Part shown: positions 17,469 through 33,261 of the stretch, in pieces | How positions within the stretch are numbered: position 1 is the first letter of the stretch | How the letters are laid out: the number at the start of each line of letters is the position of its first letter | Assembly: GCA_944387285.1 (NCBI GenBank) | Contig: CALXEH010000003.1 | Span: 1-64,000, forward strand | DNA: 64,000 bases | DNA from: an uncultured Oscillospiraceae bacterium | GTDB lineage: Bacteria; Bacillota; Clostridia; Oscillospirales; Oscillospiraceae | Direction: 5' to 3' | Translations under genes and position numbers: made by a program | The notes under the pieces: generated by a model | Databases searched by the model: none | Told to the model about the DNA's origin: nothing | What the model saw: only the letters and a program-made list of their open reading frames with translations

Positions 17469-18671
17469 ATGGCAAAGAAACTCATCATAAACTGCGCGAG
17501 CTGCGACGCCCGCAATATACGCGAGGAGGATTATGCGCACTATGAAGCTATAAGCGTCGATGCGGCCACCGTGCTCCTGAGCCCCGAGAGCAAGGCCGTC
17601 ATAAACAGGCTGCCCCTGACCCTCAACTGCGCCAATGTCGTCGAGATAGGCCGGGATGTGCAGCTGCGCATAATAAACGGCCGGGGCGAGATAAAAAGTG
17701 AGGACGCCGTGCCGGACGGGAAGTTCTACCTGCTGGTAAACGGCGCGCTCACCATCGGCCCGGATACCCAAAAGCAGCTGGCCATGTGCGCCGGCATGAG
17801 CGTGAACGGCTCGCTCAATTGCCCGGAGAGCATTTCCGCCGCGCTCAACGGCGTCAAGGTCAACGGCTCCGTCAACTGCTATCCCGACGGGGCCATCGTC
17901 CTCAAGCGCAGCGCCGTCATCGACCGGCTTTTCGCCCTTCGGGCCAGGCCCGGCCTGTACTGGGCGGGCAGGCGGATGATAATGGTGGACCCCGAACTGG
18001 ATGCGGAAGCCCTGCGCGGCAAGGGCGCCTCTTTCAGCGCCGGGGAGTTCATAGTCGCGCAGTCCAAGGTGGAAGCGCTGCTCGACCTCATAGACGAAAA
18101 CGCGGAGCTGATCCTCGTGCCCGACGGCACCTCTGTGGTGCTTGACGACATCACGCTGGACAAGGCTGCCCTGCGCCGCCGCGGGAACAATCTCTATGTG
18201 ATAGGCGACGTGACGGTGCCGGAGGACGGCGGCGTCCTGGCCGAGCTGGAATACCTGAATGTCCGCGGTGATATCCTGGTGCCGCAGGAGTACCGGGAAA
18301 AGCTCCTGGAGACGCTGACGGAACATTCCGGCGAGGTCAAGCTCACGAGGCCGAGGGGCATGCTGCTGGAAGACAAGCCGTTCGTGAAGCTCAGCCGCCG
18401 CATGCTGGAGCAGCAGCCCCAGGGCATAGAAGTCAGCGACTGCGCGCTCGTAAAGCTGGCGGAGGACATTCCGAACGAGCTGATAGCCGAGCGCCTGCAC
18501 ATTGAGGACTGCGCCGTGGTCGAGTGCAGCGAGGAGCAGGAGGCAGCCGTCGCGCTGGTCTGCGAGGACGTGGCACAGATCAGCAGCCAGGGCCCGGACG
18601 GCAAGCTCCTGGACGGCCTCAAGAGCCTGGCAGATACCAAAACCATAAACGCGGCGGAGTATGTGCTCTGA
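17469..18671 (+). CDS. unknown beta-rich protein, possibly bactofilin-like
   Basis: A 400-residue protein with no family I can name with confidence. Residues 45-260 contain repeated short beta-strand patterns of the type V-N-G-S-L/V (near 75-150) and VRGDI/VIGDV turns, suggesting a solenoid reminiscent of polymer-forming bactofilins. There is no signal peptide or membrane segment. A CASCDARN motif near the N-terminus holds two cysteines. Placed 19 bases after the ECF sigma factor with GGAGGG upstream, it is almost surely co-transcribed with it. A role in stress or envelope response is only a guess from context. Confidence 0.6.
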   Translation: MAKKLIINCASCDARNIREEDYAHYEAISVDAATVLLSPESKAVINRLPLTLNCANVVEIGRDVQLRIINGRGEIKSEDAVPDGKFYLLVNGALTIGPDTQKQLAMCAGMSVNGSLNCPESISAALNGVKVNGSVNCYPDGAIVLKRSAVIDRLFALRARPGLYWAGRRMIMVDPELDAEALRGKGASFSAGEFIVAQSKVEALLDLIDENAELILVPDGTSVVLDDITLDKAALRRRGNNLYVIGDVTVPEDGGVLAELEYLNVRGDILVPQEYREKLLETLTEHSGEVKLTRPRGMLLEDKPFVKLSRRMLEQQPQGIEVSDCALVKLAEDIPNELIAERLHIEDCAVVECSEEQEAAVALVCEDVAQISSQGPDGKLLDGLKSLADTKTINAAEYVL

Positions 18672-18740
18672 ACCCGCGCCCCGGCCAAAACGCTCCGCAG
18701 CAATGACAGCCGCCGGACGCTGACGGCAGAATGAAGCAAG

Positions 18741-18770
18741 GACCCGACGGCAGCTGCGCCGGCGGGTCTT
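18741..18770 (+). terminator. intrinsic terminator after sigma-factor operon
   Basis: GACCCG and CGGC pair with GCCG and CGGGTC across a short loop, with single-base bulges between the two stem blocks, followed by a short TTT. The stem is strong but the T-run is short. Confidence 0.6.
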
Positions 18771-18817
18771 TGCAACCTTGACAAAAATTTCTGATGAAAT
18801 ATGTGATATTATTGATA

Positions 18818-18846
18818 TTGACAAAGAATTTGGGAAATAATATAAT
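18818..18846 (+). promoter_or_regulatory. perfect consensus promoter of the glycoside locus
   Basis: TTGACA at 18818-18823 and TATAAT at 18841-18846 are separated by exactly 17 bases, a full consensus match on an AT-rich background. The transcript would start near 18853, leaving a leader of about 150 bases ahead of the LacI gene. That leader contains a stem-loop and two operator-like palindromes. Confidence 0.85.
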
Positions 18847-18871
18847 ATAGCTGTAAATATAGACAAAGCAG

Positions 18872-18917
18872 GCTTCCGTTTCATATGTTCAATGTAATCT
18901 GTTCGGCAAACGGAAGC
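18872..18917 (+). promoter_or_regulatory. leader stem-loop
   Basis: A perfect 10-bp inverted repeat, GCTTCCGTTT at 18872-18881 with AAACGGAAGC at 18908-18917, encloses 26 bases in the 5' leader. What follows is AT-rich but lacks a clean T-run, so it is not a typical terminator; it may be an attenuator-like or stabilising structure, or a second protein-binding site. Confidence 0.5.
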
Positions 18918-18922
18918 TATTA

Positions 18923-18950
18923 TTGTACTTAACTGTTGAAACGTTAAAAT
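18923..18950 (+). promoter_or_regulatory. possible second promoter overlapped by operator
   Basis: TTGTAC at 18923-18928 and TAAAAT at 18945-18950 are separated by 16 bases. The -10 box overlaps an AACGTT palindrome, an arrangement expected for repression by the LacI-type protein encoded just downstream. Confidence 0.4.
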
Positions 18951-18970
18951 AACTAACATTAACGTTTAAA
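18936..18970. promoter_or_regulatory. two LacI-type operator sites
   Basis: Two copies of an AT-rich site centred on AACGTT lie at 18936-18949 (TTGAAACGTTAAAA) and, in reverse orientation, at about 18957-18970 (TTTAAACGTTAAT on the minus strand). The same pattern recurs at 20529-20544 and 26745-26756 and nowhere else that I noticed, which ties it to this locus. Binding by the product of the gene at 19002 is inferred. Confidence 0.6.
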
Positions 18971-19001
18971 TCAAACATTGTGCGCGAAAGTATGGGTAGC
19001 C

Positions 19002-20084
19002 ATGAAGAAAGTCAGCATCAAGGACGTCGCCAAGGAGGCCGGGGTCTCACCGACCACCGTTTCATACATCCTGAACAACAACAAAAACGTCTCCATCACG
19101 CCCGAGACCAGAGCGCGGGTGCTGGCTGCATCGGATAAACTCAAATATGTGCCGAGTCAGGCCGCCAAGACCCTCGGCTCCAGCCGCGTAATGGGCAGGA
19201 CGCAGTCCAAAATGATAGGCGTCGTCATCCCGCAGACTGAAGACAGTGTGGACGATGCCTACATCATGCTCAGCAACCCCTTCTACAGCACTTTCCTGAG
19301 CGCGGTGGAATACGAGATGCGCCGCGCCAACTACCACGTCCTCGTGACGGGCACGAACAGGGGCCAGAGCTATATCGAGGTAGTCAAGAGCCGCGCGCTC
19401 GACGGAGTCATCATTATCGGCATATACCCTTCCGAGGACGTTGACGAATACCGCCGCTTCAATATCCCGACCGTGCTGGTGGACTGCTATGGCAGCTCGG
19501 GCGGGGACTTCGTCAGCATCCGCACGGACGACAGGCTCGGCGGGTACATGGCGGCAAAGCACCTGCTCGAGATGGGGCACAGGCGCATAGCCTTCGTCTC
19601 CGGCGAGATAAAGGCCGACGGTGTCAACTACATGCGCTTCCAGGGCTACAGGGACGCGCTGGCGGAATACGGCCTCGATTTTGACAGCGAGCTGGTCTTC
19701 GGCGGCTATGTCGGTTTCAGCTACGGCGCTGAGGCCGCGGCAGCCATAGCGGCGGCCAACAAGTCGGGAGGACGGCGGATCACGGCCGCCTTCGCCACCT
19801 CGGACATCACGGCCATCGGCCTCATAAAGGGCCTGAGCGAGAGCGGCCTGCGCGTGCCGGAGGATATCTCGGTCATAGGCTTCGACGACATTGACTACGC
19901 CGGCATGTGCGTGCCGGGCCTGACGACGATAAGGCAGAATATAATCGAAAAAGGGCACGAGGCGGCAAGGCTGATGATCGATGCGCTCAACGGCAAGAGC
20001 TCGGCAGGTGAGAAGATCATACCCATGCAGCTCGTGGAGAGGGCTTCTGTAAAGAGACTGACAGAGAATGCGGAGGTCGTATGA
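19002..20084 (+). CDS. LacI family transcriptional regulator
   Basis: A 360-residue repressor-type regulator. Residues 3-50 form the LacI helix-turn-helix (IKDVAKEAGVSPTTVSYILN) and hinge, and residues about 65-355 form the periplasmic-binding-like sugar sensor domain, ending with the typical VIGFDDIDYAGMCVPGLTTI segment. It is the first gene of the alpha-glycoside locus and overlaps the GH31 gene by four bases, so it is made with the enzymes it presumably controls. The ATG at 19002 is chosen over an upstream TTG at 18978 because the helix-turn-helix family normally starts at this point; the ribosome site is weak. The inducer is unknown. Confidence 0.9.
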   Translation: MKKVSIKDVAKEAGVSPTTVSYILNNNKNVSITPETRARVLAASDKLKYVPSQAAKTLGSSRVMGRTQSKMIGVVIPQTEDSVDDAYIMLSNPFYSTFLSAVEYEMRRANYHVLVTGTNRGQSYIEVVKSRALDGVIIIGIYPSEDVDEYRRFNIPTVLVDCYGSSGGDFVSIRTDDRLGGYMAAKHLLEMGHRRIAFVSGEIKADGVNYMRFQGYRDALAEYGLDFDSELVFGGYVGFSYGAEAAAAIAAANKSGGRRITAAFATSDITAIGLIKGLSESGLRVPEDISVIGFDDIDYAGMCVPGLTTIRQNIIEKGHEAARLMIDALNGKSSAGEKIIPMQLVERASVKRLTENAEVV

Positions 20085-22735
20085 AGTACAAGCACATTCC
20101 AGGCGGGTTGTTCCCGCACTTCGACTGCGGCTTTGAGCGCCGGCCATACCTGCCGGAGCCTGGAGGCAGGCTCAGCCTGGGCTGCCGCGTGGATGACGGC
20201 TCGGGCCCGCCAGAGCTCGAGATGACCTCCTGCGACGGGACAAAAATGCTCGGCGGCGAGCTGCTGAGCTCTAACGACCTGGGTCAGAAATACTACAAAT
20301 TCGAATTTGAGGCTCCGAAGACGGGCGGCCGGTTCAGCTACCGCTTCGTTTCGGAGAGCGGGGAACGCAGCAAAAGCTACGCCTGCCCGCTGGCGCGCAG
20401 AGCCGGGCTGAGGCTCTTGGACGTCCGGCAGTGCGGAGATGGTTTTTGGAGCGTTTACGAAACGGATACATTGGAGATCGGACTGAAAATTGAGTTGTTC
20501 CCGTGTATCCGTTTAATTTTTACAACTAATTTAAACGTTAAAATAGACGATAATAATGCAAATTCGCAACATATCAGTCGAGAATACGAGTTGGAGGCCG
20601 ACGAGGGGCGGCTCCGGTTGAAGCGCCGGGGCCGGGTACTGTTCGAGCTGGGCGGACAGCTGGAGGCGCTGGTTTCAGAGGGCAGGGCCATGGAGCTGGG
20701 CTTTGAGCTGCGGCTGCCGGGCAGGGCGGCCTACGGTTTCGGCGAGAAATTCGACCGCGTGGACCAGGCGGGGCTCAAGCCGCTGAACTACGTCGTGGAG
20801 CAGTATTCGCACCAGCAGGACAAGAGCTATTTGCCGGTGCCCTTCATGTTCACGGACGCGGGCGTGAGTTTTCTGCAGAGGGGCTTTTCGCGCTCGCTCT
20901 TCGACCTTGGCGGCGGCACGGACGGCCGGATGCTGACGGCGCGCATCTCCTGCCGCTGCCAGGCAGGGGAGAGGCTTTACGAGGCGCTGATAAACGAGGG
21001 CAGCCCAGCCGAGCTCATCCGGGCCTATACGGAGGAGACGGGCGCCCCGGCGCTGCCTCCGGACTGGGCCTTCGGGCCCTGGATATCCTCGAACGGCTGG
21101 AACACCCAGGCCGAGGCCGAGGAACAGCTGCGGCGCCTGGAGGAGACAGCCATACCCGCAACGGTGATGGTGCTCGAGGCCTGGAGCGACGAGGAGACCT
21201 TCTACATATGGAACGACGCCGAGTACGAGCCGCGTGACGACGGCGGGGCCTTCAGGTACGAGGATTTCCGCTTCCGCGAGGACGGGAAGTGGCCGGACCC
21301 CATGGCCTTCGTGAAGGGCCTGGAGCGCGCCGGGCTGAAGCTGGTGCTCTGGCAGATACCGGTCGTAAAGTTTGAGCGGTCGGCGCACGGCGTGCAGCTC
21401 GACCTCGACGAGAAATACGCCATCGAAAACGGGCTGTGCATAAAAAGCGGCGACGGCAGCCCCTACAGAATAACGGAGATGTGGTTCGGCAACTCGCTGA
21501 TGCCGGATTTCACGAATCCGGAGACGCGGCGCTGGTGGTTTGAGAAGCGGCGCTATCTGACGGAGCAGCTGCATGTCGCGGGCTTCAAGACGGACGGCGG
21601 CGAGTTCCTGTTCGAGCCGGAGGCTTGCAGCTCCGACGGGCGCAGGGGCTATGAGCTGCACAACGAGTACCCGCTGCTGTACGAGGGCGCCTACCACGAG
21701 TTCATGGCAGAAACGCTGGGGCCCGGCCGGGGCCTGACCTTCAGCCGGGCGGGCTTTACCGGGGCGCAGAAGTACCCGGCGCATTGGGCGGGCGACCAGG
21801 TGTCGGAGTTTTCCGAGCTGAAGGCCCAGCTCGTCGCCGGCCTTTCGCTGGGACTGACGGGCGTGCCCTTCTGGGGCTTCGACATAGGCGGCTTTGCGGG
21901 GGATTTCCCGACGACGGAGCTGTACCTGCGCTCGGCGGCCTTTGCGGCCTTTGCGCCGATAATGCAGTTCCACTCCGAGCCCAGATACGGCCAGTATTAC
22001 ATGACTGAGCGCGAGCACTGGAACAACGACCGCAGCCCCTGGAACATGGCCGAGGCGAACCGGGACGGGCGCATCGTCCCAATCTACCGGCTATTTGCAA
22101 ACCTGAGGATGAACCTCATGCCGTATATCCTCCAGGAGGCAAGGCACAGCGCCCGGACTTCGCGGCCCATGATGGCGCACCTGGTCTACGATTTTCTGGA
22201 GAGCGACGGCGAGGCGGTGCTGGACATAGAGGACGAGTACATGTTCGGGCGCAGCCTGCTGGTGGCGCCGGTGGTGACGGAAGGCGCCTCGGGCCGGCAG
22301 GTGTATCTGCCCAGGGGACGCTGGCTGGATTTCTGGACGGGCGAGGCCTTTGAAGGCGGCGCGCACATCCGCTGCGAGTGCGGGCTGGACAGGATACCGG
22401 TCTTTGTAAAATACGGCTCGGTGCTGTCGGTGAAGCTGAACGCCGCGATGTGCATGGGCACGACGCAGGCAGAGGGCGCGGCGGGCAACAGCCTGGAGGG
22501 ATATGAAAACTTCGGCTTGCTGGTGTACGGCGGCAGGGCCGCGGCCGGATTCGAGGACGGTGCGGCGGGCAGTTTCAGCCTGTATTGGCGGGAAGGCCGG
22601 CCCGGGATAGAGGGCGAGAGCCGCTGCCCCGTGTGGTTGTTTCTGATGGAGAAGGGCGAGGAACGCCCGGATGGGGAGAAAAGGGCCGCGGGCCGCTTCT
22701 TCGGGCGGGACCTGGCCGGGCTCAGGCTGGATTGA
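20081..22735 (+). CDS. GH31 alpha-glycosidase, cytoplasmic
   Basis: An 884-residue glycoside hydrolase of family 31 (alpha-glucosidase/alpha-xylosidase group). The N-terminal beta-sandwich is followed by a barrel that begins near residue 325 (PPDWAFGPWISSNGWN). The retaining nucleophile is predicted as Asp505 in FKTDGGEF, and the acid/base as Asp572 in HWAGDQ. There is no signal peptide, so it should act on imported oligosaccharides. It overlaps the LacI gene by four bases. An unusually AT-rich patch near 20500-20580 carries an operator-like palindrome inside the coding sequence. The exact linkage cleaved cannot be told. Confidence 0.9.
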   Translation: MKYKHIPGGLFPHFDCGFERRPYLPEPGGRLSLGCRVDDGSGPPELEMTSCDGTKMLGGELLSSNDLGQKYYKFEFEAPKTGGRFSYRFVSESGERSKSYACPLARRAGLRLLDVRQCGDGFWSVYETDTLEIGLKIELFPCIRLIFTTNLNVKIDDNNANSQHISREYELEADEGRLRLKRRGRVLFELGGQLEALVSEGRAMELGFELRLPGRAAYGFGEKFDRVDQAGLKPLNYVVEQYSHQQDKSYLPVPFMFTDAGVSFLQRGFSRSLFDLGGGTDGRMLTARISCRCQAGERLYEALINEGSPAELIRAYTEETGAPALPPDWAFGPWISSNGWNTQAEAEEQLRRLEETAIPATVMVLEAWSDEETFYIWNDAEYEPRDDGGAFRYEDFRFREDGKWPDPMAFVKGLERAGLKLVLWQIPVVKFERSAHGVQLDLDEKYAIENGLCIKSGDGSPYRITEMWFGNSLMPDFTNPETRRWWFEKRRYLTEQLHVAGFKTDGGEFLFEPEACSSDGRRGYELHNEYPLLYEGAYHEFMAETLGPGRGLTFSRAGFTGAQKYPAHWAGDQVSEFSELKAQLVAGLSLGLTGVPFWGFDIGGFAGDFPTTELYLRSAAFAAFAPIMQFHSEPRYGQYYMTEREHWNNDRSPWNMAEANRDGRIVPIYRLFANLRMNLMPYILQEARHSARTSRPMMAHLVYDFLESDGEAVLDIEDEYMFGRSLLVAPVVTEGASGRQVYLPRGRWLDFWTGEAFEGGAHIRCECGLDRIPVFVKYGSVLSVKLNAAMCMGTTQAEGAAGNSLEGYENFGLLVYGGRAAAGFEDGAAGSFSLYWREGRPGIEGESRCPVWLFLMEKGEERPDGEKRAAGRFFGRDLAGLRLD
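20529..20544. promoter_or_regulatory. operator-like palindrome inside GH31 gene
   Basis: ATTTAAACGTTAAAAT is a near-perfect 16-bp palindrome with one mismatched pair, centred on AACGTT like the sites at 18936-18970 and 26745. It lies in an AT-rich island of about 80 bases within a GC-rich gene, where chance occurrence is unlikely. Confidence 0.55.
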
Positions 22736-22754
22736 GAGCTTTGGAGGGGTGGAA

Positions 22755-24566
22755 GTGTCGGAATATTTGGTAACGGGAAACGAATACCTGTCCCTGCCGA
22801 CGATAAGGCAGAGCGACGGGGCCCTGGAGGGCCTGAGCTTCCTGCACATGGGCGCCAAGGGCATGATAGAGCTGCGCGGCGGCGAAGGGCAGCCCCTGCT
22901 GGCGCCCTATGCGGAGGCGGACGGCCTGGACCTGATCGGCTCCGGGCTGGCCTGGGAACGCCTGCACAGCTGGGTGCCGAGGTTCACGGCCGGCAGCGGC
23001 GGTTTTGCGCTGGAGGGCACGCTGCTCGCGCCGATAGGTGAGAGGGGCTTCGGGTACAGGCTGCTGCTCCGCGGAGGGGACAAGGGCGCGCAGTTCAAGC
23101 TGGGCCTGCGCGGCTGCTGGGCCGGGACGCTTCATTCCGTGAACGAGAGCAAGCCGATAGAGGCTGAAAAACACGCCTATGCGAGCGGCTGGAACCACAG
23201 CTTCGTCATGGACATGCGCCCGGGGCTTTCGCTCTTTGCCTTCGCGCCCGCCTTCACCGAGGACAGGGCCGCCTGCCCTGTGCGGGACTGGTTTGAAAAG
23301 CGCGGGGACGAGGTGCGCTTCGGGCTCGGGCTCGAGGGCCGGCTCGGGGCGGGCGAGAGCGTGCAGCTGTGCGTGTGGTTCGGCCTGGGTTTCGAGGAGG
23401 TCTCTGCCTCCACCTCGGCAAAGGAACTGCTGCGCCAGGGCTGGGACGCAGAACTGCAAAAGACCCTCGGCTGGCTGGCGGCCCGGGAGCGCACGGTTGG
23501 CGACGCGAAACTGGACGGGACGCTGAACCTCAACATGTTTTTCAGCTGCTTCTTCGGCGGCGGCCTGACCCTGGATACCGAGGAATTCGTGCTCGTGACC
23601 TCGCGCAGCCCGCGTTACTACGTCAGCGCGGCCTACTGGGACAGGGACAGCCTGCTATGGAGCTTCCCGGCCATACTCCTGGCGGACTCCGGCATGGCGG
23701 CCGAGATGCTGCGCTATGTGTTCACGAGGCAGATAAGGAACGTGGGCATACACAGCCGCTTCATAGACGGCACGCTGCTCGAGCCGGGCTTCGAGCTCGA
23801 CGAGCTGTGCGCCCCGGTCGTAGCGCTGGGCATGTATGTGGAGAAAACAGGCGACAGGGCGATACTCGACGAGGCCTGCGTCAAAAGCGGCATCGACCGC
23901 ATACTCAAGCGCCTGGGAACCAAGCGCAGCCCCGAGGCGGCGCTGTACGAGACTTTCCTGCAGCCCACGGACGACATGCGCAGCTATCCGTATATCTGCT
24001 ACGACAACGTGCTGGTCTGGTACATGCTGCGGAAGATCGACGAGCTGTATCCGGGCAGATGGCCGGGCCTGGCTGAAGAGGCCGGGGCGGTCAGGGCGGC
24101 TATAATGGAGCACTGCGTGAAGGAAAAGGACGGCAAGCCGATGTTTGCCTGGTCGGTGGACCTCAAAGGCGGCTGGGACGTCTACGACGAGCCGCCCGGC
24201 AGCCTTCTGCTGCTGCCTCACTACGGCTTCTGCGGCATGGACGACGAGGTCTGGAAGAACACCGCCGAGGTCATACGGCGGGAGGACTACCCCTATTCCT
24301 TCGCCGCCTGCCCGATAGCCGAGATAGGCTGCCCGCACGCGCCGCACCCCTGGGTGTTGAGCATATCCAACAGCCTGCTCTCGGACAGGAGGGAAGAGGC
24401 CCGGCGGCATCTGGCCCTCTGCTCCATGGACAACGGCATAGCCTGCGAGAGCGTGGACGAATATACGGGCGAGTGCCGGACTGGCGAGGCCTTCGCGACC
24501 TGCGCGGGCTTCCTCGCCTACGCCATAGACAGCGCCTTCGGCGGCCGAAAGCGGGTGATAGAGTGA
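22755..24566 (+). CDS. GH125-like (alpha/alpha)6 glycosidase
   Basis: A 603-residue protein. After an N-terminal domain of about 260 residues comes an (alpha/alpha)6-type region that resembles family GH125, known for exo-alpha-1,6-mannosidases: YWDRDSLLWSF near 295, FELDELCAP, QPTDDMRSY with Asp406/Asp407 where the catalytic acid is expected, and a C-terminal ACESVDEY with Glu565 where the base is expected. The match is from memory of the family, is distant, and does not fix the substrate; in this locus an alpha-glucoside is equally likely. No signal peptide. GTG start at 22755 follows GGAGGGG. It overlaps the GH65 gene by four bases. Confidence 0.7.
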   Translation: MSEYLVTGNEYLSLPTIRQSDGALEGLSFLHMGAKGMIELRGGEGQPLLAPYAEADGLDLIGSGLAWERLHSWVPRFTAGSGGFALEGTLLAPIGERGFGYRLLLRGGDKGAQFKLGLRGCWAGTLHSVNESKPIEAEKHAYASGWNHSFVMDMRPGLSLFAFAPAFTEDRAACPVRDWFEKRGDEVRFGLGLEGRLGAGESVQLCVWFGLGFEEVSASTSAKELLRQGWDAELQKTLGWLAARERTVGDAKLDGTLNLNMFFSCFFGGGLTLDTEEFVLVTSRSPRYYVSAAYWDRDSLLWSFPAILLADSGMAAEMLRYVFTRQIRNVGIHSRFIDGTLLEPGFELDELCAPVVALGMYVEKTGDRAILDEACVKSGIDRILKRLGTKRSPEAALYETFLQPTDDMRSYPYICYDNVLVWYMLRKIDELYPGRWPGLAEEAGAVRAAIMEHCVKEKDGKPMFAWSVDLKGGWDVYDEPPGSLLLLPHYGFCGMDDEVWKNTAEVIRREDYPYSFAACPIAEIGCPHAPHPWVLSISNSLLSDRREEARRHLALCSMDNGIACESVDEYTGECRTGEAFATCAGFLAYAIDSAFGGRKRVIE

Positions 24567-26749
24567 AGATACTGCCCTGGATGATCGAGATATCGGACTG
24601 CGGCGCGGACAGCCGCGAGTTCCGCGAGAGCATATTTTCGCTCGGCAACGGATATATGGGTACCAGGGGCTTCCGGCCCGAGGAGCCCGGGGCGCACAGC
24701 GCCTGGCGCTCGACCTTCATCTCCGGCTTCTTCGAGTACATCCGTCCGGGGATAACGGACATGGTGAACCAGCCGGATTTCTCGGCGGCGGAAATACGCA
24801 TAGCGGGCCGGCCCGTCACGGAGCTGCCGCTCTCGGACTTCCGCCAGAGGCTGTACATGGACTGCGGCCTCGCCGAGTGGGAATACACTGCGCAGGCCGA
24901 GGGCGCGGCGGTGCGAATAAAGGTGGAAAAGTTCCTGAGCATGTCTGAGCGTCACACGGCGGCCATGAGGTTCACGCTCACGCCCGTGAACTCGGCGGTG
25001 GACTGCTCAGTCGCCGTCGGCCTGGACGGGGCCGTCAGGAACCTGCCCATCGCGGATAACCAGCTGCAGGAGAACACCGAATTCGCCCGCATCTGGGGCG
25101 AGGTCAGGACGGAGCCTTTGGAGGGCGGCGGCATGCTCAGGGCGCGGACGCATGTGAGCGGCCGGGCCACGGCCATGTGCTTTTCGGCGCAGGGCCGGGG
25201 CCATGAGCGCAGCTCCAGAGAGCTGGACGGGGAGTATGTCGGCAGCCGCTTTGAGGCCAGGCTGGAGCCGGGCCGGCGCTTGACGGTCGAAAAGCTCGTC
25301 TCCGTCGCCTGCTTCCGGGACGGCCCGGAGCCGGAGCGGCTGGCCTGCGAGGCGCTTAAACGCGCCGCGGCCCGAGGCTTTGAGGGCCTGCTCGAGGACA
25401 CGCAGCTGGCCTGGTCGGAGCTCTGGCAGGATATGGACATAGAACTCACGGGAAGCGCCGAGTGGCAGGGCGCGCTCAGGTACAACATTTTTCAGCTCAT
25501 ACAGTCCACGCCGGAGGGCGACGGCAGGGCCAGCATAGGCGCCAGGGGCCTGACCCACGGCAGATACAAGGGCTGCTACTTCTGGGATACCGAGATCTTC
25601 ATGCTGCCCATGTTCAGCTGCATGCGTCCGGCGGCCGCCCGCAGCCTGCTGGAGTACCGCTACCACACCCTCGACGACGCCGTCAAGAGCGCGGCGGGCT
25701 TCTCGGCAAAGGGCGCCCGCTACTCCTGGATGTCGGCGGATACGGGCTTTGAACAGTGCGAGACCTGGGACACCGGCTGCTGTGAGATACATATAACGGC
25801 GGATATAGCCTACGCCATAGGCAGCTACTTCGAGCAGACGGGGGACGAGGCCTTCCTGCGCGACTGCGGCTGCGAGATACTCATACAGACGGCCAGGTAT
25901 TGGACCGACCGCTTCAACTACTGCCCGGCGGAGGACAGGTACCATCTGCTGTTCGTGAAGGGCCCTGACGAATACTGCGGCGTGACCTCGGACGACTTCT
26001 ACTCCGTGCGCATGGCGGCGCACAACCTGCGCCTGGCGGCGCGGGCCGTGGGCTTCCTGCAGGAGCGCTTCCCGGAAAAGCTCGCGGAGCTCGGCCTGAA
26101 GCTCGGGCTCGGCGCGGATGAGCCGGGAAAATGGCTCGAGCTGGCCGGCAAGACCTGCGAGCGCTTCGACGAGGAGCGCGGGCTCTGGCTGCAGGACGCC
26201 ACTTTCGAGTACCTGGAGCCCCTGGACATAGCCGCCCACAAGACCGGGAACCTGCCGCTCTACCGGAGCATCAGCTTCGACAGGCTGCAGAGGTACAAGG
26301 TGCTCAAGCAGCCGGCGGTGCTCATGTATATGGCGCTCAGGCCCGGGGAATTCAGCCAGGACGAGCTGCGGGCCGCCTGGGACTATTACGAGCCCCGTAC
26401 CCTGCACGACTCCACCCTGAGTTACGGCATACACGCCCTGCTGGCGGCCAGGCTCGGCCTAGGTGACGCAGCCGTGAGCTACTTTGAAAAGTCGCTCTTC
26501 CTCGACCTGCGGGATGTGATGTCCAGTACCGGCCGCGAGGGCATACACGCCGCCTCGCTGGGCGCGACATGGCAGGCCGTGGTCTTCGGCTTCTGCGGGC
26601 TGACGCTCCGGGACGGGGTCCCCGCCTGCGAGCCCCGGCTGCCGCCGCACATCGGCTCCGTGCGCTTCCACGTCCGCGCAAGAGGCCGCCGCTATAGGAT
26701 AGAATTGTCCCACTTCGGTTCGGTTATCACCGAAATATGCGAACTTTAA
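24563..26749 (+). CDS. GH65 inverting alpha-glucoside phosphorylase
   Basis: A 728-residue enzyme of family 65, which includes maltose, trehalose, kojibiose and nigerose phosphorylases. Residues 1-250 form the beta-sandwich (SLGNGYMGTRG near 23), and the helical barrel holds KGCYFWDTEIF near 335 and KGPDEYCGV with the general acid Glu470. The substrate-contacting segment YKVLKQPAVLMY is present. It would split an imported disaccharide with phosphate, giving beta-glucose 1-phosphate. GTG start at 24563 overlaps the previous stop (GTGA). Its own stop codon lies inside the operator palindrome at 26745. Which disaccharide is used cannot be decided by eye. Confidence 0.88.
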   Translation: MKILPWMIEISDCGADSREFRESIFSLGNGYMGTRGFRPEEPGAHSAWRSTFISGFFEYIRPGITDMVNQPDFSAAEIRIAGRPVTELPLSDFRQRLYMDCGLAEWEYTAQAEGAAVRIKVEKFLSMSERHTAAMRFTLTPVNSAVDCSVAVGLDGAVRNLPIADNQLQENTEFARIWGEVRTEPLEGGGMLRARTHVSGRATAMCFSAQGRGHERSSRELDGEYVGSRFEARLEPGRRLTVEKLVSVACFRDGPEPERLACEALKRAAARGFEGLLEDTQLAWSELWQDMDIELTGSAEWQGALRYNIFQLIQSTPEGDGRASIGARGLTHGRYKGCYFWDTEIFMLPMFSCMRPAAARSLLEYRYHTLDDAVKSAAGFSAKGARYSWMSADTGFEQCETWDTGCCEIHITADIAYAIGSYFEQTGDEAFLRDCGCEILIQTARYWTDRFNYCPAEDRYHLLFVKGPDEYCGVTSDDFYSVRMAAHNLRLAARAVGFLQERFPEKLAELGLKLGLGADEPGKWLELAGKTCERFDEERGLWLQDATFEYLEPLDIAAHKTGNLPLYRSISFDRLQRYKVLKQPAVLMYMALRPGEFSQDELRAAWDYYEPRTLHDSTLSYGIHALLAARLGLGDAAVSYFEKSLFLDLRDVMSSTGREGIHAASLGATWQAVVFGFCGLTLRDGVPACEPRLPPHIGSVRFHVRARGRRYRIELSHFGSVITEICEL

Positions 26750-26756
26750 CGTTAAA
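26745..26756. promoter_or_regulatory. LacI-type operator before transporter genes
   Basis: TTTAACGTTAAA is a perfect 12-bp palindrome centred on AACGTT, matching the sites near the LacI gene. It overlaps the stop of the GH65 gene and stands about 105 bases before the solute-binding protein gene, where an internal promoter would be expected, although I see no good -35/-10 pair. Confidence 0.6.
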
Positions 26757-26861
26757 ATAGCAATTAATTCTCCAAATAACGCTCGACCTGCGCGCGGCCG
26801 CTGCGATATCGGGAGAGTTGATGGATAAAAAACAACACCAAAAGTCAGGAGGAATCAAAAA

Positions 26862-28373
26862 ATGAAAAACTGGAAGAAGCTCTTATCCCTGTGCCTGGCA
26901 CTCGTCATGATGCTGGGCCTGCTGTCCGCCTGCGGCAGCGAGCCGTCGGACACCAGCGCACCGCCTGCCGACGCCACCGACGCTCCGCCGGCCGAGACCG
27001 GAGGCGAGGCTGAAGGCGGCGACGACGTCTACGCCATGGAAGGCGCAGTGACGATAGCCTATCCCGAGGGCGAGACGGCCGAGATCCAGCCCGTGCTCGA
27101 GGCCTTCCGCGTCCAGTACCCGAACATAGAGGTCATTGAGGAGCCCTTCCCCGGCTCGACCGGCGGCGCCTTCAACGAGTATCTCGCCCAGAAGGCCGCG
27201 TCCGGCAGCATGCCCGACCTCATGTGGCTCGACTGGAACGACTTTGCACCCGAGGTCGCCTCCGGCTATGTCTATGACATAAGCGAGATGTTCTTCTCCG
27301 ACCCCGAATCCGAGTATGTGCCCTCCGGCATGACCGACCCCTACACCTACGGCGGCAAGCTCTACGCCCTGCCCTGCCAGATGAACGCCATGGGCATCAC
27401 GATGAACCTCGACATGCTCGACGAGCTGAATATCGAGAAGCCGGGTTACGACTGGACGATGGATGAGTTCATCGAGATCGTCAAGAAGGGCATCACCGCC
27501 GGCACCGTCGGCGCCGCCACGCTCGAGGACCTGGACAACGTCTATTCCGCCCAGGCCGACGGCTGGTGGTATCCCGCCTACGACTTTGTGAACCAGAAGT
27601 TCGACTTCACCAACATGTGGGTCCCGGCCATGAACAGGCTGGCCGAGCTGCGCGAGGTCCCCGGCCTTGAGGCCTGGATCATGCGCTACCCGAAGGAGGA
27701 GGACGGCACCACCTCCATGAACTCCGACTACGTCGCCAAGTTCGGCGAGGCCGGCAAGGACGACAACCACTACACCTTCAAAAACGGCATGGCCCTGCTG
27801 TGCACCAACGCCACCTACAACGACAACTGGATGCGCAACGAGTGCCAGGTGAACTGGGACTACTGGCCGTATCCGCGGGTGGACGCCGATACCCCGACCT
27901 ACACGCCCATCCACGTTGACTGCGCCTACCTCACCAGCACCTGCGCCGACCCGCAGGCCGCCTTCCAGCTGCTCAAGTGGCTGACCTACGGCGTCGAGGG
28001 CAACCTGCAGAGGCTCGACATCTTCGCCGCCCGCAGCGACGGCGAGTTCGCGGGCGAGACCACGACACTGCTCAAGACCTGGTTCATGCCCTGCACGCAG
28101 CATCCGGACGTCGTGGCCAAGTTCAGCGAGAACCCCAACGTCACCGAGGGCCTGGCCGCCCTGTATGAGAGCCTTGAGTATTCCATCCGCGGCGACATCA
28201 ACAAGGTCATCCCGGGCTACAACAACATCTTCAACGACGAGGTCAACGCTCTGCTGAGCTCCGTGCGCGAGGGCAATGCCAGCGCCGCCGAGGTCGCGCC
28301 TCAGATCGACGCCCTGGTGAACGCCGCCCTGGCCGAGCAGCTCGAGGCCTTCAACGCCAAGGTCGGCGGCTGA
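26862..28373 (+). CDS. ABC sugar-binding lipoprotein (family 1)
   Basis: A 503-residue extracellular solute-binding protein of the CUT1 sugar transporter type. A lipoprotein signal with lipobox LLSAC gives a lipidated Cys near residue 25, followed by an acidic Thr/Pro/Ala linker and the binding fold (TIAYPEGETAEIQPVLEAF near 65, then MPDLMWLDWNDFAPEVASG). CAGGAGG lies at a good distance before the ATG. It should capture the oligosaccharide used by the locus and deliver it to a permease pair downstream. A long perfect hairpin separates it from the next gene. Confidence 0.9.
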   Translation: MKNWKKLLSLCLALVMMLGLLSACGSEPSDTSAPPADATDAPPAETGGEAEGGDDVYAMEGAVTIAYPEGETAEIQPVLEAFRVQYPNIEVIEEPFPGSTGGAFNEYLAQKAASGSMPDLMWLDWNDFAPEVASGYVYDISEMFFSDPESEYVPSGMTDPYTYGGKLYALPCQMNAMGITMNLDMLDELNIEKPGYDWTMDEFIEIVKKGITAGTVGAATLEDLDNVYSAQADGWWYPAYDFVNQKFDFTNMWVPAMNRLAELREVPGLEAWIMRYPKEEDGTTSMNSDYVAKFGEAGKDDNHYTFKNGMALLCTNATYNDNWMRNECQVNWDYWPYPRVDADTPTYTPIHVDCAYLTSTCADPQAAFQLLKWLTYGVEGNLQRLDIFAARSDGEFAGETTTLLKTWFMPCTQHPDVVAKFSENPNVTEGLAALYESLEYSIRGDINKVIPGYNNIFNDEVNALLSSVREGNASAAEVAPQIDALVNAALAEQLEAFNAKVGG

Positions 28374-28410
28374 GCCAGCCGGCCGGGCACTAAGCATACG
28401 GCATAACTGA

Positions 28411-28446
28411 GCCTGCCGTCACAGCCTTGCGGCTGTGACGGCAGGC
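28411..28446 (+). promoter_or_regulatory. 16-bp perfect intercistronic hairpin
   Basis: GCCTGCCGTCACAGCC at 28411-28426 pairs without mismatch with 28431-28446 around a TTGC loop. No T-run follows, so it is not an ordinary terminator. Its place after a highly expressed binding-protein gene fits an RNA 3'-end stabiliser that lets the binding protein outnumber the permeases, as known for the maltose operon; this role is inferred. Confidence 0.75.
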
Positions 28447-28476
28447 GGACGGATAAGTTTCGGGGAGGGTGTGAGC

Positions 28477-31377
28477 ATGAAGAAATTTGCAAAGGCGGCG
28501 GCAGTCGCTCTGGCGGCGCTGCTCGCCGTCTGGGTAGCGGTCACCGCCGTTGTCATGAGCGCGGAGGCGGGCGACCTGGACGAGCTGGCCGCGCAGACGC
28601 AAAGGGAGCACATCCTCTCCGACGACGAGCTCGCCGCGGCCCAGCTCTGGTTCATGGACCGCGCGGCGGGCGCCCTGGAATTCGAGGGCGGCATGGAGCT
28701 CACGGCGGAGGAAGAGTACGAGTTCGGCCTGGAGGTCGCCGGGGCCGGGAAATACCACATTGCCGCGGTCTATGCCGCCTATGAGGACAACGCCTTTGAA
28801 AACCAGGTGAAGGCCGGTGTAAACGGAGAGAGCTGTACCGTCGTGCTGCCCTTCCTCTGGGCGGACAGCTGCGATACGGGCGTGGACAGGTACGGCAGCG
28901 AGATACAGCCCGAACAGTACCAGCTGCCCTTTGCCGTCTCGTTTTTTGAGGACTACGAGGACTTTGCCCGCCTGCCTCTGGAGTACGAGCTCCAGGCGGG
29001 CCGCAACAGCGTCACGCTCCTGCCCATGAACCAGGACATCAGGCTCTATGCCCTCTACGCCGTGGAGCCGGAGACGGTGCCGGACTACGCGGGCTACCTC
29101 GCCGCGCACGAGGGCGCTGCGGACTATGCGGGGCCGGTCATCACCATCCAGGGCGAGGATTTCCGCGCCAAAAGCGACAGCGCCATCCGCGGCTCGAGCG
29201 TCCAGAATGTCTCGCTCACGCCCTACAGCCCCTATGGCAAGCTGATAAACGCCACCGAGGACAAGTCCAACAAGCTCATAGGCCAGAAGCTGTACTATGA
29301 GATAGAGGTGCCGGAGGACGCTTTCTACTGCCTGAGTTTCAAATACTGCCAGCCGCTCAAGACCGGCGGCCTGTCCTACCGCTCGGTGGAGGTGGACGGG
29401 CAGACGCCCTATGCCGAGCTGAGGGACATCGGCTTTGCCAACACCGGCATAAACAAGTACGCGAACCTCACCGCCGGCGGGGAGGAGCCGCTGCGCGTTT
29501 ACCTGACGGAGGGCGTACACATACTCACGCTCAAGGTCACCGCCGGGCCGCTCGACGGGCCGTATCACCGCCTGCTCGAGGTCATAGGCGACATCAACGA
29601 GACGGGCCTGCTGCTCAGCCGCATACGCGGCAACAGCTCCGGCTCGAGCGCGAGCGTGGACGCGAACCGGACCTGGGACGTGTTCCAGTACATGCCCGAC
29701 ATCCTGGAGCGGACGGAGCACTGGATAGAGGAGCTGGACAGCATCTACAACGAGCTCGGCGAGCTCTCCGGCGGCAGCCCGTCCTTTGCCGCGGACATCA
29801 AGCTGGCCGTGCAGAACCTGGAGAGGTTCGCATCGAAACCGAGGGAGATACCAAACCGCCTGAACCTGCTGAACGACGGCTCGAATTCCGCGGCCCAGCT
29901 GGCCGCCAAGGCGCTGTCCAGCCTCTACGACCAGAACCTCAGCCTGGACTGCATCTACCTGCACGCGGCGGACGCGCAGCTGCCCTCGCCCTCGGCGAAT
30001 TTCTTCAAGAGCGTGGAGGCCTCGCTCAAGCAGTTTTTGTACTCCTTCTCGCCCATCATGAACGAGGTCGAGAGCTCGACCAGCGGCAGCGGCGCCCTGA
30101 CGGTGTGGGTCAACAAGTCCACGCAGTACGTCGAGACGCTCCGCCAGCTCGCGGCCGAGGATTTCACGAAGAAGACGGGCATAAACGTCTCCTTCTCCAT
30201 CATGCCGGACGAAAAGCGCATAACCATGGCAAATTCCACGGGCGATACGCCGGACATGGCCCTGGGCCTCAACTATTACCGCCCGGCCGAGTTCGCCATG
30301 CGCGGCATGGCGCTCAACCTGCTCGAGTTCGACGATTTCATAGACTGGTACAGCGAGGAATACAACCTCGAATCCCTCGCGCCCATGGCCTATGAGGACG
30401 GCATCTACGCCGCGGCAGAGACGCAGGACTACTACGTCCTGTTCTACCGCAAGGACATCCTGGACTCGTTGGGATTGAGCGTCCCGGAGACCTGGGAGGA
30501 CGTCAAGGCCATGATGCCGACCCTGTTGAGCAACGCCATGAACTTCTACCTGCCCCTGGCCAAGGACCCGGGCTACAAGGGCTTTGAGTCCATGGGCTGC
30601 TTCATCTTCCAGAACGGCGGCAGCCTGTACTCCGAGGACGGCTGCTACTCCAACTTCAGCGACCCGAATACGCTCAAGGGCCTGCGCGAGATGACGGAGC
30701 TCTACAGCGTCTACGGCCTGGCCCAGAATGTGCCGGATTTCTTCAACGCCTTCCGCTCGGGCTATATACCGATAGGCGTCTCGACCTCTGCGACCTATGT
30801 GCGGCTGCAGATGGGCGCGCCGGAGCTCAACGGGCTCTGGGACATCGCCCTCTCGCCGGGTACGGAGCGCGACGGCGTCATACACCGCGAGCAGTCCGCA
30901 GACGTCACTACGGCGATGATCTTCGCCAACACCAAGATGAAGGACGAGGCCTACGAATTCCTCAAGTGGTGGCTCTCCTCCGAGACGCAGCTGCGCTACG
31001 CCAACGACCTGCAGGCCAGGTACGGCTCGGACTACATCTGGAACTCGGCCAACCACGCCGCCTTCGCGCAGATGTCCTATCCGCTTTCGCACAAGCAGGT
31101 GATACTCGAGCAGTGGCAGTGGCAGAAGGAGATACTCAGGCACCCGGCCAGCTACATCCTCGAGCGCTCACTGAGCAACGCCTGGATACAGATAGTGACG
31201 GAGGGCGAGCAGTTCAGGCCGATGATCGACGAGGCCACGCTGATTTCCAACCGCGAGATGCTCAGGAAACTGGCCGAGTTCGGCTACTTCGACGACGAGG
31301 GCAATAAGATCAAAGACTACAACATCCACGTCGTGGACGATATCATAGCCGGGCTGGCAGCCGAAAGGGGGCAGTGA
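28477..31377 (+). CDS. large exported protein with C-terminal solute-binding domain
   Basis: A 966-residue exported protein. A signal peptide (residues 1-31, ending near MSAEAG) is followed by about 500 residues of beta-rich sequence in two similar blocks, each with a carbohydrate-binding-module look (AGKYHIAAVYAAY and DAFYCLSFKYCQPL). The last ~430 residues form a family 1 solute-binding fold (GALTVWVNKSTQYVETLRQL near 545). Such fusions differ from standard binding proteins of about 430 residues. No lipobox Cys is seen. The ATG at 28477 has GGGGAGGG upstream. It may serve the second permease pair, or hold a longer glycan near the membrane. Confidence 0.8.
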   Translation: MKKFAKAAAVALAALLAVWVAVTAVVMSAEAGDLDELAAQTQREHILSDDELAAAQLWFMDRAAGALEFEGGMELTAEEEYEFGLEVAGAGKYHIAAVYAAYEDNAFENQVKAGVNGESCTVVLPFLWADSCDTGVDRYGSEIQPEQYQLPFAVSFFEDYEDFARLPLEYELQAGRNSVTLLPMNQDIRLYALYAVEPETVPDYAGYLAAHEGAADYAGPVITIQGEDFRAKSDSAIRGSSVQNVSLTPYSPYGKLINATEDKSNKLIGQKLYYEIEVPEDAFYCLSFKYCQPLKTGGLSYRSVEVDGQTPYAELRDIGFANTGINKYANLTAGGEEPLRVYLTEGVHILTLKVTAGPLDGPYHRLLEVIGDINETGLLLSRIRGNSSGSSASVDANRTWDVFQYMPDILERTEHWIEELDSIYNELGELSGGSPSFAADIKLAVQNLERFASKPREIPNRLNLLNDGSNSAAQLAAKALSSLYDQNLSLDCIYLHAADAQLPSPSANFFKSVEASLKQFLYSFSPIMNEVESSTSGSGALTVWVNKSTQYVETLRQLAAEDFTKKTGINVSFSIMPDEKRITMANSTGDTPDMALGLNYYRPAEFAMRGMALNLLEFDDFIDWYSEEYNLESLAPMAYEDGIYAAAETQDYYVLFYRKDILDSLGLSVPETWEDVKAMMPTLLSNAMNFYLPLAKDPGYKGFESMGCFIFQNGGSLYSEDGCYSNFSDPNTLKGLREMTELYSVYGLAQNVPDFFNAFRSGYIPIGVSTSATYVRLQMGAPELNGLWDIALSPGTERDGVIHREQSADVTTAMIFANTKMKDEAYEFLKWWLSSETQLRYANDLQARYGSDYIWNSANHAAFAQMSYPLSHKQVILEQWQWQKEILRHPASYILERSLSNAWIQIVTEGEQFRPMIDEATLISNREMLRKLAEFGYFDDEGNKIKDYNIHVVDDIIAGLAAERGQ

Positions 31378-31378
31378 A

Positions 31379-32314
31379 ATGACAGCGATAAGGGCCGTGA
31401 AGGACGGTATCCTGGCCGTGTTCAGGCGGATGGACAAGCACGCGGTGTTTTGGCTCCAGCTGCCCTTCGTAGTGCTGTTCGTAGTGTTCATAATCGTGCC
31501 CATACTTGTGGCCTTCGGCCTGTCGTTCACGGATTTCAACTCCATCCAGAGCCCGAACTGGGTGGGAGCGGAAAACTACATAAACATCCTGACGAACGAC
31601 GACGTCTTCTCGGGCTACGCCCTGCCGAACACCATAAAGTACGCGGTCATAGTCGGCGTGTTCGGCTATATCCTGGCCTTCATCCTGGCCTGGATGCTGG
31701 CCCAGGTGCCGCGCATACCGCGGACCATCATGGCGGCCATACTCTACCTGCCGTCCATGACGGGGCCCACCATGATACAGAATGTCTGGCAGGTCATCTT
31801 TGCGGGCGATAAGGTGGGATATCTTAACGCCTTCCTGCTCAAGTGGGACATAATCCGCGAGCCTGTGGTCTGGCTCTCGGACTCGAAATACATAATGACC
31901 ATCATGATAATCGTCTCGCTCTGGAGCTGCATGGGCATAGGCTTCCTGTCGATGCTGGCGGGCATCCTGAACGTCAACCGCGAGCTCTACGAGGCCGCGC
32001 ACATAGACGGCGTGTCGAACCGCCTGCAGGAGGTCATCTATGTGACGATACCGGCCATCAAGCCGCACATGATGTTCGGCGCCATTATGGCCATCGTCAA
32101 CGCCTTCCAGAACGCCAACATCGGCGTCCAGCTCTCGGGCGCGAACCCGACGCCGGGCTATGCCGGGCAGCTGCTCATAACCCACGCGGACGAGCACGCC
32201 TTCGTCCGCTACGAGATGGGCTACAGCGCGGCAATATCCGTCATCGTGCTCATCATCATCTGGGTCATATCGCAGCTGTCCAAGAAGGTGTTCAGGGATA
32301 AGGAGGCGGCCTGA
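31379..32314 (+). CDS. CUT1 sugar ABC permease (UgpA/LplB type)
   Basis: A 311-residue integral membrane protein with about six transmembrane segments. The cytoplasmic EAA loop that docks to the ATPase is at about residues 203-225 (YEAAHIDGVSNRLQEV). It starts one base after the preceding stop and overlaps the next permease by one base (TGATG), so the two form a heterodimer pair. No ATP-binding subunit is encoded anywhere in this locus; a shared MsmK/MsiK-type ATPase is the usual solution. Confidence 0.9.
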   Translation: MTAIRAVKDGILAVFRRMDKHAVFWLQLPFVVLFVVFIIVPILVAFGLSFTDFNSIQSPNWVGAENYINILTNDDVFSGYALPNTIKYAVIVGVFGYILAFILAWMLAQVPRIPRTIMAAILYLPSMTGPTMIQNVWQVIFAGDKVGYLNAFLLKWDIIREPVVWLSDSKYIMTIMIIVSLWSCMGIGFLSMLAGILNVNRELYEAAHIDGVSNRLQEVIYVTIPAIKPHMMFGAIMAIVNAFQNANIGVQLSGANPTPGYAGQLLITHADEHAFVRYEMGYSAAISVIVLIIIWVISQLSKKVFRDKEAA

Positions 32315-33261
32315 TGAAAACCAAGAGGAAAAACCGCATCCGGCTCACCGGCATAAACCCCACGCGCTTTGACCGCAGCCAGATAAAATTCTATGTCATC
32401 CTCCTGCCCATCATGGTGTTCATGTCCTTCCCCATGATCTTCATCGTTTTCAACGCCTTCAAGCCGCTCGACGAGCTGCTCAACTACCCGCCCAACCTCA
32501 TCACGCTCCGGCCCACGCTGCAAAACTTCCAAAACCTCATCGCCACCTCGGACAACAAGGCCATACCGGTCTCGAGATACCTCTTCAACAGCATGATCAC
32601 GACGCTGGTGGTCGTGCTGCTGTCGGTGCTCATAACCTCCATGGCGGCCTACTGCATGTCGAAGAAGAAGTACAGGCTCAAGAACATCCTCTTCGGCATC
32701 AACGAGGCGGCGCTGATGTTCGTTTCCGCCGCCGTGGCGATACCGAGGTACATAATCATGAGCAAGCTGGGCTTTACGGACACCTTCTGGGCGCAGGTGA
32801 TACCCCTCCTGGCCATACCCGTGGGCCTGTACCTGGTGAAGCAGTTCATAGACGAGCTGCCGGACGAGATGATCGAGGCCGCAAGGATAGACGGCGCGGG
32901 CGACTTCCAGATACTCAGGCGGATAGTCATACCCAATATCTCGCCTGCGCTGGCCACGGTGGCGATATTGGCCTTCCAGTCGGCCTGGGGCAGCGTGGAG
33001 GCCTCGAACTACTACATAAACAACGAGGCGCTCAAGACCTTTGCCTTTTACATGACCACGCTCTCGAACCAGGCGGGCGCGAGCAACCTGGCCAACGCCA
33101 ACGCGATGGCCGGGGCCGGCGGCCTGCTGGGCAACAGCGCCGTGGCCGGCCTGGGCCTTCAGGCGGCAGCCACCCTCATAATGTTCATACCCAACCTCGT
33201 GTTGTTCATCATACTCCAGTCCAGGGTAATGAACACCATGTCCCACTCCGGCATGAAGTGA
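32314..33261 (+). CDS. CUT1 sugar ABC permease (UgpE/LplC type)
   Basis: A 315-residue membrane protein with six predicted transmembrane segments and the EAA loop IEAARIDGAGDFQILRRI near residues 188-205. It is the second half of the first permease pair. The family normally has about 280 residues; here the extra length is a charged N-terminal tail and a Gly/Ala/Asn-rich periplasmic loop near 250-285. Confidence 0.9.
   Translation: MKTKRKNRIRLTGINPTRFDRSQIKFYVILLPIMVFMSFPMIFIVFNAFKPLDELLNYPPNLITLRPTLQNFQNLIATSDNKAIPVSRYLFNSMITTLVVVLLSVLITSMAAYCMSKKKYRLKNILFGINEAALMFVSAAVAIPRYIIMSKLGFTDTFWAQVIPLLAIPVGLYLVKQFIDELPDEMIEAARIDGAGDFQILRRIVIPNISPALATVAILAFQSAWGSVEASNYYINNEALKTFAFYMTTLSNQAGASNLANANAMAGAGGLLGNSAVAGLGLQAAATLIMFIPNLVLFIILQSRVMNTMSHSGMK

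Follow-up and report, generated by a model that had tools for sequence, protein, structure and literature searches.

Within the window, by which we mean the whole stretch of 64,000 nucleotides that was analysed, a LacI-family repressor gene heads an operon of glycosidase and transporter genes, and an operator-like palindrome lies inside the first glycosidase gene, which belongs to family GH31. We consider it very likely, with a probability of about 0.9, that this internal palindrome (Oi) is a real operator of the repressor encoded immediately upstream and that it is under selection. Computation shows that its conservation at the synonymous level is position-specific, genome-specific and clade-wide and, judged from sequence comparison, its presence within GH31 is not due to chance. 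It is still debated whether transcription-factor sites located within bacterial genes have any effect, and parts of a study of PhoB describe its intragenic sites as mostly unconserved and inert (PMC10294691). Of all codons scanned in four operon genes, those of Oi are under the strongest synonymous constraint, and this in a clade whose gene GC contents range from 38 to 67%, and an operator that would dictate a stretch of enzyme sequence provides a clean, testable case.

The Locus and Its Operator-Like Sites

The repressor carries the domains PF00356 (57 bits) and PF13377 (128 bits), both over the cut-off, and is thus a member of the LacI/GalR family. Its gene is followed, in order, by genes for GH31, GH125-like and GH65 proteins, two solute-binding proteins and two ABC permeases. 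The features of the locus are as follows.

18818–18846, + strand: sigma-70 promoter of the lacI-GH31 operon, TTGACA-N17-TATAAT, 12/12 consensus match
18936–18948, + strand: candidate operator O1a, TTGAAACGTTAAA, 89 nt past the -10 box
18958–18970, - strand: candidate operator O1b, TTTAAACGTTAAT, with its CpG centre 21 bp from that of O1a
19002–20084, + strand: LacI-family repressor gene (LacI HTH, Peripla_BP_3)
20081–22735, + strand: GH31 glycosidase gene, its ATG overlapping the lacI stop codon
20440–20590, + strand: AT-rich patch of the GH31 gene, with a GC3 of 0.35 (whole gene 0.83)
20460–20470, + strand: left arm of an inverted repeat, AAACGGATACA
20504–20514, + strand: right arm of the inverted repeat, TGTATCCGTTT
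20517–20521, + strand: T5 tract, 8 nt before Oi
20530–20542, + strand: candidate internal operator Oi, TTTAAACGTTAAA, GH31 codons 150–155 (block 20528–20545)
22758–24566, + strand: GH125-like glycosidase gene
24563–26749, + strand: GH65 glycosidase or phosphorylase gene
26744–26757, + strand: candidate operator O3, core TTTAACGTTAAA, before the transporter genes (TTTTAACGTTAAA as 26745–26757 on the - strand)
26862–28373 and 28435–31377, + strand: two solute-binding protein genes (block 26862–33261)
31379–32314 and 32314–33261, + strand: two ABC permease genes (same block)

The sequence-only reading had proposed four sites with a common pattern, two before the LacI gene, one before the transporter genes and one inside the first GH31 gene, and all are present at those positions. 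Oi alone is an exact TTTAAACGTTAAA; O1a, O1b and O3 each carry one mismatch, and O3 overlaps the GH65 stop codon. The sites show the features of LacI-family operators, being palindromes with a central CG, a motif class described for the family (PMC4052901), that lie near the regulator's own gene and the target genes.

Within the window, six strand matches at up to two mismatches were found against 0.19 expected, and none of 100 shuffles reached six. A scan of the whole 2.42-Mb assembly (85.5% complete) placed all four matches to TTTAAACGTTAAA with up to one mismatch within these 7.8 kb, and the motif, for which such a scan had been proposed, is not common elsewhere. The reversed-pattern control gave three matches in the whole assembly, and therefore the total count is ordinary and it is the clustering within 7.8 kb that stands out. 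A looser pattern, WWWAACGTTWWW, occurs at seven places genome-wide, three of them at the locus.

Elsewhere in the window's genome, TAAAACGTTTTW palindromes occur at G000:C34:22368, C34:24847 and C95:3910, and they are perhaps operators of another LacI-family regulator. The window also holds a second GH31 gene (40183–42093), 42–44% identical over residues 171–830, at which the window-wide motif scan found no operator. The solute-binding protein encoded at 28435–31377 is 980 aa long, and its SBP domain is confined to the C-terminal part, the N-terminal 550 or so residues giving no Pfam match.

Conservation across a Clade of Related Loci

When genome contigs were scanned with the GH31 protein, 31 relatives were obtained, of which 13 loci were examined first and L016 and L018 were added, with L020–L035 (26–54% identity, partial protein) left out. 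Two of the hits L037–L054, namely L045 and L047, were checked for the internal site. Further orthologues were sought by protein searches of 394, 391, 60, 80, 198 and 195 genomes (overlapping sets) and of plasmids, which yielded L045, more distant paralogue-like hits and the re-finds L050 and L055–L059, counted once.

The window and L005–L014 form a clade of eleven GH31 genes (support 99/99; 50–74% identity to the window protein), each of which sits directly behind an orthologous lacI (50–80% identity). In the codon alignment an operator-like palindrome occupies the same six aligned codons in all eleven members, with a fixed arm score of at least 9/10 in eight and of 7/10 in L011, L013 and L014; the site of L014 was recognised by eye. 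When the protein was held fixed and codons were resampled from each gene's own usage, the P values for the internal site were 5e-5 for the window and L005, 0.0035–0.046 for L006–L010 and L012 and, for the weaker loci, 0.028 (L011), 0.118 (L013) and 0.114 (L014). Fisher's combination over the eleven values is 8e-13, the rows being related and not independent.

The internal site was absent from the relatives examined outside the clade. L045, which has an orthologous lacI, lacks it (arm score 4/10), and L017, L018 and L019, with a repressor relative at 41–44%, carry GH31 further downstream without it; a TTAAACGTTTAA site lies upstream of the repressor in L017 and L019.

The specificity of the pattern TTTAA(N)CGWTAAA was examined in 12 genomes. 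Both of its places in the window's genome are inside the locus, the sole match in the genome of L006 is the internal site, and of the two places in that of L009 one is upstream of lacI and the other is internal. In most other genomes of the 12 there are a few extra places; that of L014 has none, and the 9.4-Mb genome of L017 has eight away from its lacI site.

LacI-family operators usually form a constant even palindrome, whereas here the centre spacing varies by 0–2 nt. By eye, the centre variants tend to match between the internal and outside sites of a locus, being AACG in the window and L005, ACCG in L006, L010 and L012, and the even form in L008 and L009, and they disagree in L007.

Two of these genomes call for separate comment. 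The contig of L010 (SHOH01000002.1, titled Anaerolineaceae) is labelled Chloroflexota and its operon is closest to that of L012 (labelled Lachnoclostridium), which may reflect horizontal transfer or misbinning. A further TTTAACGTTAAA lies outside the operon in the genome of L008 (L060, 2996–3007), where there is no ORF of at least 150 aa, and it is a possible regulon site.

Constraint on DNA and on Protein

Conservation of the internal patch in relatives at the DNA level had been named as a check, and it was borne out, by the palindrome at fixed codons in 11/11 and by the highest synonymous z in the scan. At the Oi block, the same codon is used in 92% of same-residue pairs against 37% expected, giving a z of 14.3, which is the top value among 873 GH31, 353 LacI, 597 GH125 and 723 GH65 windows; the best values in the other genes are 7.7 for LacI, 9.1 for GH125 and 7.6 for GH65. 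Leaving out five close pairs gives 13.6.

The encoded peptide, NL[NTS][VD]K, is itself fairly conserved in the clade, as it should be if it were kept for enzyme function with the palindrome as a by-product. Against this stand the excess of identical codons, the use of rare codons in genes of 64–67% GC, such as TTA, which has a frequency of 0.01 among leucine codons in the genes of the window and L005 (GC3 0.83 and 0.89) and is used in their blocks, and the loss of the peptide, judged by eye, in L045, L015, L017 and L019. Moreover, an AlphaFold2 model of GH31, made with a shallow 13-row alignment (mean pLDDT 79), falls below 50 at residues 151–166, a loop that begins within the operator-encoded peptide. 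Since synonymous codons are conserved and the peptide enters a low-confidence loop, selection likely acts on the DNA and not on the peptide. The conserved entity at Oi thus appears to be DNA rather than protein; pure protein constraint is hardly credible, and we reject it as largely refuted by the codon tests and the predicted structure.

The Promoter and the lacI-Proximal Operators

In the window and its closest relative, L005, O1 lies 87–89 nt downstream of the -10 box of a 12/12 promoter. A second arrangement is found in seven of the eleven loci (L006, L007 and L010–L014), where O1 begins 3–4 nt past the -10 box, with TTGACA at 17 nt; the promoter scan found none at the lacI of L008 and L009. 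The degenerate O1 sites of L010–L013 were picked by eye, and they gain support from the uniform distance that separates them from the -10 box. The distance from O1 to Oi is 1499–1594 bp in all eleven loci, a similarity that is mostly due to the length of lacI. The centres of O1a and O1b are separated by 21 bp, similar to the spacing of 21–22 bp described for cooperative LacI-family sites (PMC4052901).

Probable Mode of Action of the Internal Operator

The main action of Oi is probably that of a roadblock to elongation. A repressor dimer bound at Oi would block RNA polymerase that has already passed lacI, so that leaky or read-through transcripts would still produce the autoregulated repressor and would be cut off ahead of the GH31, GH125 and GH65 enzymes, and the inducing sugar would lift the block. 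Oi is situated in transcribed coding sequence with no adjacent promoter, which is the arrangement of a purB-type roadblock, and this reading is also favoured by the position of the lacI-proximal operators of the window and L005, well downstream of their 12/12 promoters, and by the lack of a conserved internal promoter of the sigma-70 type. According to parts of one study, LacI roadblocks in vivo end in release of the polymerase, largely by Mfd, and trailing or translating ribosomes help RNA polymerase through them (PMC4132739); because Oi lies in translated sequence, this help is the main argument against an efficient block. In addition, where O1 begins 3–4 nt past the -10 box, as in 7/11 loci, ordinary repression of initiation would suffice.

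An anchor for looping, of the kind represented by O2 in lacZ, was the other role proposed in the sequence-only reading. Repressor at Oi would then bridge to O1, some 1.5–1.6 kb upstream, and raise the local repressor concentration at the promoter. Like the lacZ site, Oi does lie within the first of the enzyme genes, and its distance to O1 is similar throughout, mostly via the length of lacI. Against looping, E. coli LacI aligns to the clade repressor P0002 up to LacI residue 328, after which about ten residues remain, and none of the eleven clade repressors extends far enough for a lac-type C-terminal tetramerisation helix, as a tetrameric bridging repressor would have, other modes of bridging being possible. 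Nor is Oi the weaker, auxiliary site by score, since its score equals or exceeds that of O1 in 8/11 loci, this being score and not affinity; O1 falls below the score threshold in L010 and L012, both sites do so in L011 and L013, and in L014 the order is reversed, O1 outscoring Oi. Some LacI-family dimers other than that of lac, including GalR, can loop with helper proteins, and a missing helix does not therefore exclude looping. The absence of the helix and the relative scores nevertheless fit a roadblock better than a loop anchor, which we consider unlikely. Thus, the first of the two roles proposed earlier has gained support, from the lack of the helix and the distant promoter-proximal operators of the window and L005, and the second has lost it through the absence of the lac-type helix.

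Two other readings carry still less weight. A repressor-controlled promoter within the AT-rich patch, from which the downstream enzyme genes or an antisense RNA would be transcribed, would be in keeping with a shift to AT beyond codon usage in 8/11 loci (z -2.8 to -9.2) and with a weak - strand match at 20577–20550. However, a scan for promoters of the sigma-70 type gave no match conserved in position, with weak 9/12 matches in two of the eleven clade members, and on these grounds the internal promoter was rejected as very unlikely. The site could also be bound and inert, a decoy or titration site with no effect on local transcription, as has been suggested for the majority of intragenic PhoB sites, for which sections of the same report give no detectable regulation (PMC10294691); those sites are mostly unconserved there, whereas Oi is kept clade-wide at fixed codons, and inertness is accordingly most improbable.

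Relationship to Known Coding-Region Operators

The PurR site in E. coli purB reportedly acts as a roadblock to elongation, and purB is not located behind its own repressor gene. In lac, the internal site is auxiliary and weaker, and among global regulators CcpA belongs to the LacI/GalR family. Coding-region sites of LacI-family regulators are rare, constituting less than 1% in a large survey in which lacZ and purB were named (PMC4052901), and Oi, as a predicted operator, is a new member of this group. It resembles the PurR-purB case in that a LacI-family repressor would bind within coding sequence, at a position suited to halting elongation, and it differs in that Oi would separate an autoregulated repressor gene from enzyme genes within one operon and has been retained throughout a clade whose proteins are about 50% identical. 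Like lac O2, Oi belongs to a sugar operon under the control of a LacI-family protein and lies, as a predicted operator, within the first gene that encodes an enzyme. The lac repressor acts as a tetramer, as stated in part of one source (PMC3711431), whereas the clade repressors lack the tetramerisation helix and Oi does not score below O1 in most loci.

Passages of a further report describe a GlyR3 site in manB of Clostridium thermocellum, weaker than the site at celC, and contain no clade-wide conservation analysis of it, unlike that available for Oi (PMC5483248). CcpA at cre is said, in part of another source, to block elongation (PMC4348106); CcpA is a global regulator that works together with P-Ser-HPr, whereas Oi is specific to its locus. 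We found no description of the internal operator of this operon in the open-licence literature, searched without targeting the organism name. The motif range of the LacI-family regulon survey was -400 to +100, and for this reason a site at +450, like Oi, could be overlooked (PMC4052901).

The AT-Rich Patch and Inverted Repeats

The AT-rich patch noted earlier around the internal site is real, with a GC content of about 0.35 at 20450–20599 against 0.64 for the GH31 gene. Total GC of the patch is under the codon null in the same 8/11 loci, and there is little difference in L008, L009 and L010.

Directly upstream of Oi lies the inverted repeat AAACGGATACA-N33-TGTATCCGTTT with its T-tract, both of which were spotted by eye before testing. 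Codon-null P values for the repeat are 0.001 in the window and L005, 0.034 in L006, 0.019 in L007, 0.055 in L010, 0.287 in L012 and 0.39–1.0 in L008, L009, L011, L013 and L014. The repeat exceeds what a composition-matched codon null predicts in the window and L005–L007; in L010 the result is borderline, in L012 the repeat is shifted, and no comparable stem is present in the other five. The window and L005–L007 have a stem and a T4–T5 tract, with a loop of 33 nt, which may or may not represent an intrinsic terminator, and a tract of T4 or longer occurs in 10/11 loci (per-locus P 0.02–0.73; combined 9e-4, the rows not being independent). One of eleven pairs is compensatory among six aligned sequences, a level reached by 94 of 500 shuffles, and the left arm has a synonymous z of 7.4, no higher than the maxima of the neighbouring genes. 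A hairpin acting as a clade-wide RNA element is unsupported by covariation, codon null or left-arm z, and no Rfam element at gathering score was found in 18000–28000. The repeat may represent a refinement particular to one lineage, or it may have arisen by coincidence from the TDT and CIR codons.

In other roadblocks, the transcript ends about 15 nt before the operator. Were the hairpin, T-tract and Oi to constitute a composite terminator that spares the regulator, roadblocked polymerase would release a truncated lacI transcript with a 3' end near 20515, at the base of the 20460–20514 stem, which would protect it. In this way repression would actively supply a stable mRNA for the repressor while shutting off the enzymes, all within translated enzyme codons; we regard this as distinctly improbable.

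Inverted repeats also occur at other sites. One, GCTTCCGTTT...AAACGGAAGC, lies at 18870–18920 between the promoter and the first operator, and L005 has a matching repeat at 640–706, likewise between promoter and first operator, with a stronger fold than that of the window, so that in the window and L005 both operators are preceded by an inverted repeat. Hairpin-like inverted repeats were also seen by eye between O3 and the first solute-binding protein gene, at 26760–26860 and in the equivalent gaps of L005–L007, L010 and L012.
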